A DNA stretch of 64,000 nt from Streptomyces roseoverticillatus (GTDB taxonomy: Bacteria > Actinomycetota > Actinomycetes > Streptomycetales > Streptomycetaceae), in contig NZ_JOFL01000013.1 in NCBI RefSeq assembly GCF_000719265.1, positions 62,001-126,000 of the forward strand, in the 5' to 3' direction. The notes beneath the pieces were generated by a model that was given only the letters and a program-made list of their open reading frames with translations, searched no databases and was not told the DNA's origin. Position 1 is the stretch's first letter. The number at the start of each line of letters is the position of its first letter. This document shows positions 56,804 to 62,330 of the stretch, piece after piece. Made by a program: the position numbers and the translations under genes.

Positions 56804-57859
56804 TCACCGGCCCGTGAAGAGACCGTGGGGAGGGGCGAGACCGTCCTTGGGCCCCGGGTCGGCACGGGTGTAGCGGTCGACCTGCCGGTAGTAGTCGTGG
56901 GCGCCGCGGACGACGTGCCAGTACGCGGTGGCGCACTTCAAAGCGTCGGCCTTCGTCCGCCCTGTGACGCCGGCCGCGTCGAGCCGGCCCGGCAGGTCCT
57001 GCTGGGCCGCGACCATCCGCCGGGCGCGTACGTCCAGCATGCCGGCGCAGCGGTCCACGGCCTCCTGGAGGCCGACGCGCTCGTGGTGCCCGATCAGGAT
57101 CACCGCGTTGTGGAAGGCGCCGGCTTCGCGTTCCTTGCCCACGGACCAGAAGTCGTTGTGGAGGCCGAGGTATTCGGCGGCGGCGTGGCGCAGGTCCCGC
57201 AGGGCGGGGAGACGGCGTACGGCTTCGGGCAGGTCGACGCCCGCGCCCGGCTCGGCGAGGGACAGCATCACGTACGCGCCGAACGCGTGGGCACGCTGGC
57301 GCGGGTAGGCGTCCAGGCGGGGGTAGCGGTGCGCGACCCGGTCGGCGGCGTCCTCGCGGTACGTCCGGAACCAGCCCTCGACGTCCCGGCGGAAGGCCCG
57401 GCTCCAGCCGGGCGACCGGCCCTCCTGGACGCGCAGCCGGATGTCGGCGAGGGCACGCTCGGCCGGCGTTCTGCCGGGGCGTCCGCCGAGCACGTCCAGC
57501 AGGGTGGCGAGCGTGGAGGCGCAGCGGGCGGGGTCGCGTCCGTCCGGGCCGTCGTCGAACTCGTCGTCCATGATGCAGATCCAGTACAGCCACGGTGTGA
57601 GCCGGGCCAGCACGGGCGGACTCGCCGCCGGGTAGAAGAGCGTGGCGGTGAGGGGCAGGCGGGCCCGGCGGAGAATGCGCCGGGAGGCGGCGGACCGGCA
57701 GAGCCCGAACCGGTCCAGCCACGCCTCCGCCGCGGCGTGCGCCGCTCGTAGGTGAGGGCTCGGGGCGTGGGGAGGGGCGGGCATGGCGACCTCGGGGACG
57801 ACGATGCCGTCGAGGCCGTAGGGGGTCGGGGGCGGCGCCGTACGGACGGTTGTCGTCAT
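56804..57859 (-). CDS. class I terpene synthase
   Basis: 351 aa from ATG 57859. Aspartate-rich motif DDEFDD at 98-103, NSE triad NDFWSVGKE at 235-243 and RY pair at 329-330, all complete, so it is probably active. It cyclises a prenyl diphosphate, probably farnesyl diphosphate; no second domain or geosmin/2-MIB signature is obvious, and the product cannot be told. It is the third gene after the MFS transporter and the secreted protein on the minus strand. Confidence 0.92.
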   Translation of the reverse strand: MTTTVRTAPPPTPYGLDGIVVPEVAMPAPPHAPSPHLRAAHAAAEAWLDRFGLCRSAASRRILRRARLPLTATLFYPAASPPVLARLTPWLYWICIMDDEFDDGPDGRDPARCASTLATLLDVLGGRPGRTPAERALADIRLRVQEGRSPGWSRAFRRDVEGWFRTYREDAADRVAHRYPRLDAYPRQRAHAFGAYVMLSLAEPGAGVDLPEAVRRLPALRDLRHAAAEYLGLHNDFWSVGKEREAGAFHNAVILIGHHERVGLQEAVDRCAGMLDVRARRMVAAQQDLPGRLDAAGVTGRTKADALKCATAYWHVVRGAHDYYRQVDRYTRADPGPKDGLAPPHGLFTGR

Positions 57860-60305: not shown

Positions 60306-60878
60306 GTGGACGTGAGCGGGCCGAGTGGCGCGGCGGGCATATCCGGTGAGCGGGGAGCGAGCGCCGGGGGCAGGCGGCGGGTGCTGCTGCTTCTCGCCGT
60401 GGCGGGGCTCTCCTACCTGATCGACCTGGGCAGCAAGCTGGTTGTGGTCGCCGAGCTGGAGAACCGGCCTGCCGTCCGGGTGATCGGCTCGTGGCTGGAG
60501 CTACGGGTGATGCGCAACCCCGGCGCGGCGTTCAGCATCGGCGAGACGACGACCATCGTGTTCACGCTCATAGCCACTGCCGTCGCCGTGGCGATCGTCC
60601 GCCTGGCGCGCAAGCTCTACAGCACCCCGTGGGCCATCGCCCTGGGCCTGCTGCTCGGCGGCGCGCTCGGCAATCTGACGGACCGTCTCTTCCGTTCCCC
60701 CGGAGGCCTGCAGGGCGCGGTCGTCGACTTCATCTCCGTCCGCGGCTTCAGCGTGATGAATCTCGCCGACTGGGCGGTGTTCTGCGGCGGCGTCCTGATC
60801 GTGTTCTGCACTCTTCGGGGATGGGAACTGGACGGCACGAGGGGACAAGCCGGCGCCCGGAGTGCCGAGGCCGCTTGA
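60306..60878 (+). CDS. lspA: lipoprotein signal peptidase (signal peptidase II) paralogue
   Basis: 190 aa from GTG 60306; GTG 60312 is possible. Four helices and the two catalytic Asp regions: [23 protein letters not shown] (Asp) and [14 protein letters not shown] (Asp). Likely a second copy, as the housekeeping lspA is usually next to rluD. It is convergent with the lanthipeptide-like precursor gene. Confidence 0.88.
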
Positions 60879-60901: not shown

Positions 60902-60929
60902 GGTGCGGCACCCACGCGGGTGCCGCACC
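60902..60929. terminator. bidirectional terminator between lspA and peptide gene
   Basis: Perfect stem GGTGCGGCACCC (60902-60913), loop ACGC, GGGTGCCGCACC (60918-60929). It ends 4 bases before the stop codon of the peptide gene and 23 bases after lspA. Confidence 0.9.
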
Positions 60930-60933
60930 GCCT

Positions 60934-61056
60934 TCACCCGGCTTTGTGGCAGATGAGCAGGCTGAGTCCGCTGTCAGGCTCGGTGCTGGCTCCGAACCCC
61001 GTGCCCTGTCCCGCGGCCATGGCGGACTCCATCACCTGCAGATCGAGAAGCACCAT
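60934..61056 (-). CDS. class III lanthipeptide-like precursor peptide (SapB/RamS type)
   Basis: 40 aa from ATG 61056 with GAAGGGG seven bases upstream. Opening MVLLDLQVMES matches the class III leader consensus LFDLQ/LLDLQ-x-ME seen in RamS and AmfS. The core has S-G-L-S-L-L-I-C, an exact S-x2-S-x3-C labionin motif, ending HKAG, with one further Thr/Ser pair (ASTEPDS). Only one Cys, versus two in SapB. No LanKC synthetase is within the window, so modification would need a trans-acting enzyme. The nearest upstream gene on this strand is an IPNS-like oxygenase. Confidence 0.7.
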   Translation of the reverse strand: MVLLDLQVMESAMAAGQGTGFGASTEPDSGLSLLICHKAG

Positions 61057-61122
61057 CTCGTTCCCCTTCCGTCCCGCTCGCCGATGCCCGCAGGGGGCCC
61101 GTAGGGGCCTTGCCCCGCGGGG

Positions 61123-61184: not shown

Positions 61185-62096
61185 CTAGCGCCCTTCGAGG
61201 AGGGATTCGAGGAGGGACGCGTACTGGCTGCCCGTGTCGAACGGTTCGTAGCGGGGCGGGTCGGTCTCACTGATGAACGGCTCCAGTGGCGCGACCACCG
61301 TGCTGTAGGAAGGGCGGTGCTTGTACTGGATGGAGACCCTGTCGACGGGCACCGGACCGACGCGGTGCAGCGCCGCCCGGTAGGTGCCGTTCGTCCACCG
61401 TTGCAAGTAGTCGCCGAGGAAGACGAAGAACGCGTCAGGGATCACCGGAACCGGTATCCATCCGCCATCCGCGCCCCGTACCTCCAGGCCCGGCTCGTCC
61501 TGCGCCAGGACGGTGAAGAGGGCGTGATCGACATGCGGTGACATCGCATAGTCCACCGTATTGGCGATCTCCGCGCCGTATCCCACCTTGTAGTAATTGA
61601 GCCCCAGCCGGTGCATCGGCGACTTCATGCAGGAATCGAAGAAGCCACCGTTCAGAGCGAGATCGGCGACGCACGCGGAGAGAAGCGAGTCGCCCAGGAC
61701 GACCATGCGCTCGAAGAGTTCGGCGCACCGCCGGAAGGGCTCGTGGTAGAAATCCGCCGGCCGGCCCGACGCGAGGGCACCGGTCGTCCGCCCGATCCTG
61801 TACTGCTCACAAGCCTCGCCGCCCGCGTGCGAGGTGCTTCTCTCCTGACCCACGCTCCGGTAGCCCAGGAACTGCGAGCGCACATCGGCGGCCAGGTTCT
61901 TCTTCTCGTGAGCCGGACGTGCATAGAACCGCAGTGTTTCCTCGAACGCAGGCGATACCAGGCCGGTTGGTACGCCATGATTGAGCACGAAGAAGAATCC
62001 GTCGCGACGGCACGCTGCGCCTATCTCGGCGACCGCATCTTCCGAGGTCAGGTCCACTGACGCGATGGCCGATCCCGATACCTTTGCCGAAATCAC
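61185..62096 (-). CDS. isopenicillin-N-synthase-like 2OG/Fe(II) oxygenase
   Basis: 303 aa from GTG 62096, with GGAGG ten bases upstream; GTG 62180 is also in frame but its extra codons have atypically low GC3. Family features: IGAACRRDGFFFVLNHGVP near the N-terminus, HVDHALFTVLAQDE (His-x-Asp), second His and Arg-x-Ser in ALHRVGPVPVDRVSIQYKHRP. Locally lower GC content than neighbours suggests transfer. It may hydroxylate, desaturate or cyclise the small peptide, but only context supports this. Confidence 0.83.
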   Translation of the reverse strand: MISAKVSGSAIASVDLTSEDAVAEIGAACRRDGFFFVLNHGVPTGLVSPAFEETLRFYARPAHEKKNLAADVRSQFLGYRSVGQERSTSHAGGEACEQYRIGRTTGALASGRPADFYHEPFRRCAELFERMVVLGDSLLSACVADLALNGGFFDSCMKSPMHRLGLNYYKVGYGAEIANTVDYAMSPHVDHALFTVLAQDEPGLEVRGADGGWIPVPVIPDAFFVFLGDYLQRWTNGTYRAALHRVGPVPVDRVSIQYKHRPSYSTVVAPLEPFISETDPPRYEPFDTGSQYASLLESLLEGR

Positions 62097-62330
62097 CCCT
62101 GTGACACCTCCGAAAGATCTTCCATGCGAAGGGGATCTCCGTAGCTCAGTATCCCGACCAGGTGCCGACCGGGCATCCACTCAAAGTGTTCTCCTCCGTA
62201 CGCCGGTTTACGGAGACGGTTTCAGCCAAGTGTAAGAATGCGGCCCGGCGTTGACGTCGTTTTCCGCTCGCACTACTTTCCTCGCTGCCCGACGAGAGGT
62301 ACTCGAGTGCGGCTGCCAGGAATGCCCTTC

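Follow-up and report, generated by a model that had tools for sequence, protein, structure and literature searches.

A 40-codon open reading frame in the 64,000-nucleotide stretch of Streptomyces roseoverticillatus DNA analysed here (the window) raises the question of whether a class III lanthipeptide precursor can be encoded apart from any synthetase and, if so, which enzyme would modify its product. The original prediction, which gave no strand, placed the frame at 60934–61056 behind a strong ribosome site. We found it there on the minus strand as 40 codons plus a stop, reading MVLLDLQVMESAMAAGQGTGFGASTEPDSGLSLLICHKAG, with its ATG start at 61054–61056 and its TGA stop at 60934–60936, and a purine-rich, Shine–Dalgarno-like GGAAGGGG was indeed located six bases 5′ of the ATG (61063–61070, minus strand), in a region largely kept in the closest relative, G060. 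The encoded peptide, hereafter the orphan, opens with an LLDLQ leader motif at residues 3–7 (61036–61050, minus strand) and its core has a single S-x2-S-x3-C ring motif, SGLSLLIC, at residues 29–36 (60949–60972, minus strand). Pro27 (60976–60978, minus strand) lies two residues ahead of the first ring Ser and marks a candidate leader-cleavage region, to which the comparison of one- and two-motif peptides below points.

Promoter and terminator consensus scans of the gene found nothing. Four bases beyond the end of the frame, in the gap where the peptide gene and lspA converge, lies a 12-bp G+C hairpin without a U run (60902–60929, minus strand; z −2.47) that the terminator scan had missed; its stem bases are identical in G060 and its loop differs, and it is possibly a terminator shared by the two genes. 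Start codons and ribosome-site-like bases were present at all six loci inspected for them.

Membership in the SapB/AmfS family

The orphan scored above the cut-offs of two family models, with 31.3 bits against PF19402 RamS (gathering score 24.3) and 29.7 bits against the NCBIfam model NF033212 SapB/AmfS (cut-off 25), which supports its predicted assignment as a class III precursor with one ring motif. Across the whole genome, the RamS model exceeded its cut-off at two places, one being the orphan (E 6.2e-6) and the other, on contig C2, a second RamS. Class III membership is also consistent with the LanKC synthetases of the genome, three of which exceeded the cut-off, one of them beside RamS. 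The orphan has the LLDLQ (LxLQ) leader of the family but one SxxSxxxC motif instead of two in tandem, and we therefore call it a variant branch of the SapB/AmfS family.

A profile search of the protein database returned 56 proteins at E ≤ 1; those that carry an NCBI name are mostly called ‘SapB/AmfS family lant(h)ipeptide’ and in some cases ‘hypothetical protein’ (P0005 and P0013). Because the family models matched over cut-off and homologues occur in other species, the orphan, judged by its sequence, is not a chance frame. Its homologues, of 36–44 aa, retain the leader and ring residues. From the 56 matches we fetched 29 sequences and picked one-motif peptides from these; in the resulting alignment of 19 selected sequences L3, L4, D5, Q7, S29, S32, L34 and C36 are invariant. 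The alignment leaves out P0023, a Gly- and His-rich one-motif peptide with no Pro ahead of the core. The ring Ser and Cys and the leader residues are kept in two further one-motif sequences (from S. lilacinus and a second copy in G035), giving 21 in total. The frame is thus conserved in related genomes with its leader and core residues kept, and the lack of conservation that had been named as telling against a precursor gene was not observed. The expectation that a one-ring version would be novel proved too strong, given that a one-motif peptide of S. flaveolus (P0020, of a more distant type) is already named as SapB/AmfS family, as are most close relatives; further one-motif peptides in the database are P0018, P0023 and P0025.

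The 21 one-motif peptides were compared with 44 distinct two-motif RamS-type peptides read from loci, a set that leaves out the MTILDLQ types described below, L163 and a cousin of the orphan in G257. Pro occurs within three residues ahead of the core in 14 of the 21 one-motif peptides (14/22 with P0023 counted) versus 0/44 RamS-type peptides, and the 12 residues ahead of the core hold on average 2.0 Gly (n = 21) versus 5.2 (n = 44). At least two residues follow the last Cys in 18/21 versus 2/44. The G257 cousin, a peptide of 52 aa encoded at the orphan locus of that genome (L022, 9865–10023), has two motifs, SDLSVGTC and SNLSVLLC, each after a Pro, so that Pro marks the orphan lineage and not the ring number. 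This cousin is a possible link between the one- and two-ring forms.

For the closest pair, the window and G060, full-length comparison over 37 codons gave dN 0.136 and dS 0.297 (NG86), and the ratio of about 0.46 suggests weak constraint, which is mild and alone no proof of coding; differences at codon positions 1, 2 and 3 numbered 7, 3 and 7, with no third-position excess. We relied on the full-length value, as anchor-block dN/dS leans low because the blocks were chosen for being conserved.

Distribution in Streptomyces

A single-sequence search of 392 Streptomyces genomes revealed relatives of the orphan in five, its own included. In the same 392 genomes, profile A3 matched 40 times at E ≤ 1e-5, in 37 genomes, and every match was read; weaker matches in G372, G285 and G080, part of another set of 56 matches and 27 of the 56 database hits were left unread. 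Among the 40 were six one-motif peptides in five genomes (one each in G000, which holds the window, G060, G018 and G051, and two in G035) and the two-motif cousin of G257, the others being two-motif RamS/AmfS or MTILDLQ types. The notion that one-ring peptides are everywhere was not borne out by this count (5/392 genomes). The MTILDLQ type, with the layout MTILDLQ...SxxSxxC...SxxSxxxC, ends exactly at Cys (L032, L034, L053, L064 and L164) and was found in G262, G086, G365, G006 and G250.

When genomes were ranked by a 1,821-base stretch of rpoB, which was matched in 390 of the 392, nine stood at 96% or more (G000, G060, G018, G302, G257, G373, G051, G219 and G035) and the next at 94%. In an rpoB tree built from the 30 nearest genomes, these nine grouped as a single branch with moderate support (89/93). 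One-motif peptides were present in 5/9 genomes inside the branch versus 0/381 outside (hypergeometric 1.7e-9, a guide only, as related genomes are non-independent), or in 6/9 when the two-ring cousin of G257 is counted; in the remaining three branch genomes (G302, G373 and G219) the only precursor-like matches were two-motif RamS. In this sample, the one-ring form is apparently clade-restricted.

The peptides of G018 and G035 match those of S. cinnamoneus and S. mashuensis, respectively, and that of G051 is the S. mobaraensis peptide. Close homologues occur in nine named species (cinnamoneus, mashuensis, abikoensis, syringium, klenkii, nondiastaticus, stramineus, mobaraensis and lilacinus), six of which the NCBI taxonomy lists with a Streptoverticillium synonym (6/10 with S. 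flaveolus added); no such synonym was seen for the other three (the names beginning with k and n were unlisted). Streptoverticillium was defined by whorled aerial hyphae.

Neighbourhoods of the orphan loci

In agreement with the predicted lack of an adjacent synthetase, a profile search found no LanKC over the family cut-off on the 205,872-base contig of the orphan, the sole match at E ≤ 0.001 being a kinase-level one of 56 bits, and tblastn with the four LanKC of its own genome found nothing in the window. The neighbours scanned in the window were lspA, a 2OG oxygenase, EamA and MFS genes, and the layout of a ram/amf cluster, in which the precursor adjoins RamC/AmfT and ABC exporter genes, was not found. 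LanKC were also absent from eight orphan stretches of about 20 kb each (G000, G060, G035 twice, G257, G018, G051 and S. lilacinus) when RamC, the two tandem LanKC and the C4 protein introduced below served as tblastn queries, although about 200 bases separate the G018 orphan from a contig end, leaving a LanKC possible on that side, and the S. lilacinus stretch includes runs of N. The same queries detected three LanKC loci as a positive control. Genome-wide LanKC matches (E ≤ 1e-60) of G060, G035 and G018 were located on contigs other than those of the orphans, and in G257 the nearest LanKC match, which is below the cut-off, is about 42 kb from the orphan on the same contig.

As read from the stretches compared, the orphans occupy no fewer than three settings: one with a second lspA alongside, in G000 and G060, where the G060 peptide faces lspA too; another in G018, G051 and G257, where each locus has some neighbours, not the same in each case, in common with the first G035 locus; and one next to an MFS gene, shared by S. 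lilacinus and the second G035 locus. The lspA gene of the window (60306–60878) is a second signal peptidase II gene, and only G000 and G060 among the nine branch genomes have two copies at E ≤ 1e-20. Extra lspA copies can give self-resistance to globomycin-like antibiotics.

The nearest upstream gene on the same strand, 128 bases off, encodes a 2OG-Fe(II) oxygenase (61185–62180; PF03171, 66.8 bits). The original prediction was therefore right about an oxygenase upstream, but the gene is no conserved partner of the peptide. The G060 oxygenase (L020, 12236–12939) lacks its core, residues 157–236 of the 331-aa protein, while the peptide there is intact, and tblastn found no trace of the oxygenase in the six orphan stretches outside G000 and G060; on these grounds it was ruled out as a tailoring partner.

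Candidate enzymes and proposed route

A class III synthetase search of the genome identified RamC on contig C2 (1127 bits) and, on C20, two LanKC in tandem (746 and 930 bits); a weaker LanKC-like protein encoded on C4 reached 397 bits and fell short of the cut-off (575). The RamC-type enzyme that the original prediction had expected elsewhere in the genome is thus present. It adjoins its own two-ring RamS, MALLDLQNMESEANTGHGGGGQSTVSLLSCVSTASVLICL, on a contig apart from that of the orphan, and the leader of this RamS (MALLDLQNMESEANTG...) shares M-LLDLQ-MES with that of the orphan. Modification of the orphan by RamC in trans is plausible, and RamC is the best candidate enzyme, although its presence in all five genomes checked means that co-occurrence is unable to single it out.

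LanKC enzymes bind the leader helix; ThurKC, by the account in PMC10604976, does so through an LELQL motif, with contacts made by Gln(−15) and aliphatic residues, and also when the leader is added in trans. The L-L-D-L-Q of the orphan has the same spacing as this motif. Class III leader proteases are described as often encoded away from the cluster (PMC8960859, PMC10885120), and for flavipeptin a prolyl oligopeptidase is described as cutting after a leader Pro (PMC10885120). Given trans leader binding and unclustered proteases, RamC and host proteases could in principle mature a clusterless precursor. We propose that the LLDLQ helix of the orphan docks on RamC encoded on the other contig, that RamC would dehydrate Ser29 and Ser32, and that Cys36 would complete a single ring, either lanthionine or labionin. 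The leader may then be cut near Glu26–Pro27 by AplP-like or prolyl oligopeptidase-like host proteases whose genes lie elsewhere. Once extracellular, the short hydrophobic ring peptide with a polar tail could serve as a surface-active peptide or as an accessory signal in development. An accessory morphogen is a natural guess because, as described in PMC13380574, a durhapeptin variant triggered the formation of aerial hyphae in some species, though not in its own producer. Fewer Gly precede the orphan core than in RamS-type peptides, so the Ram/Amf exporter may not process the orphans.

Family membership, the conserved residues, the lack of an adjacent synthetase, the presence in one branch and the location of RamC and RamS elsewhere in the genome, all of them read from DNA and protein comparisons, are probably best accounted for by a free-standing class III precursor gene that has a single ring motif, belongs to the SapB/AmfS (RamS) family and encodes a product that would dock on and be modified by RamC, lose its leader and have an extracellular role. 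A real precursor could instead be served by the tandem pair or the weaker C4 protein, which are encoded in the same genome, and tandem pairs are also present in G060, G035, G257 and G018; in addition, the C4 protein may lack a substrate of its own, because no precursor with an L-x-D-L-Q leader was found in the 20 kb around it. The tandem pair, however, has its own precursors, which begin with M(A/S)EIL(D/E)LQELEEE (leaders MAEILDLQELEEE and MSEILELQELEEE) and have cores unlike that of the orphan; since these carry another leader, the orphan leader resembles that of RamS and not theirs. We consider it unlikely that either enzyme is the one in use, and the tandem pair, obvious as it may seem, was not favoured as it has precursors of its own. 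At the tandem locus (L025, 6664–12149), the two short precursors, with a WPCAN core, lie between the LanKC genes, and G060 has a similar pair of tandem-type precursors.

Two further explanations were weighed. The family already has a working copy in the ram/amf locus, to which the orphan would be an addition, and the mild dN/dS of the closest pair, without third-position excess, together with the patchy presence in the branch (6/9 genomes including the G257 two-ring cousin), is what a decaying RamS duplicate, out of use, might leave behind. Such decay is improbable, as the ring Ser and Cys and the leader residues are retained in the 19 selected one-motif sequences and two more, starts and ribosome-site-like bases are present at the six inspected loci, and the peptide is intact in G060 where the neighbouring oxygenase is broken. 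Alternatively, a leader nearly identical to that of RamS, with neither exporter nor LanKC adjoining, might serve as a regulatory decoy that competes with RamS for RamC and needs no core modification; S29, S32 and C36 would be superfluous in a pure decoy, yet they are invariant in the selected set, which makes this reading very improbable.

Relation to known systems

The orphan has the MxLLDLQ leader, SxxSxxxC motif, length and genus in common with RamS/SapB and AmfS (PF19402, NF033212). It differs in its single motif, its Pro ahead of the core and its short tail, against two motifs and in most cases a Gly-rich linker in the 44 RamS-type peptides of the comparison, and RamS lies beside RamC in the five genomes checked whereas the orphan has no adjacent LanKC. 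Durhapeptin, as described in PMC13380574, likewise combines an LLDLQ leader with class III ring motifs, but has two tandem SxxSxxxC motifs, a feature that cores of the durhapeptin-like subgroup commonly show, and a compact cluster with KC and transporter, neither of which the orphan has; rochsin A has two labionins by the same description, in contrast to the one ring motif of the orphan. An Sx2Sx3C core like that of the orphan is reported for the class III family III 3 of Streptococcus pneumoniae, in an account that leaves the copy number unstated, but that family belongs to a different phylum and is clustered with its synthetase and proteases (PMC7268733).

With the layout proposed for the orphan, class III would have its own example of a promiscuous synthetase whose precursors are encoded at scattered sites away from it. 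In the prochlorosin system, many precursors are served by the promiscuous ProcM, but this is a class II enzyme and the leaders are of Nif11 type, whereas orphans number one or two. Some prochlorosin precursors are encoded away from ProcM. It is conceivable, although we regard it as doubtful, that the former Streptoverticillium clade has its own clusterless one-ring SapB-like branch, made in trans by housekeeping RamC in a prochlorosin-like class III layout, which contributes to the form of the whorled aerial branches.

The SapB/AmfS family is already known, and an automated family name already exists. A clusterless, apparently clade-restricted one-ring class III branch was not found in the literature searched, which mostly excluded subscription journals; what seems to be unpublished is such a branch, in which Pro often stands ahead of the core in place of the RamS glycines. 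If a clusterless branch is indeed conserved, SapB may not be the only product of RamC, and peptide morphogens may outnumber what clusters suggest. The clade is known for whorled hyphae, and restriction to it, in this sample, offers a testable link between peptide set and colony form. Because mining usually starts from the synthetase, precursors without a nearby synthetase are missed; a large lanthipeptide mining study is described as having sorted clusters by LanC-domain protein (PMC7268733).

Elsewhere in the window, a terpene synthase family 2 protein is encoded at 56804–57859 (PF19086, 129 bits); against the isoafricanol synthase model it scored 146 bits, far below the cut-off of 500.
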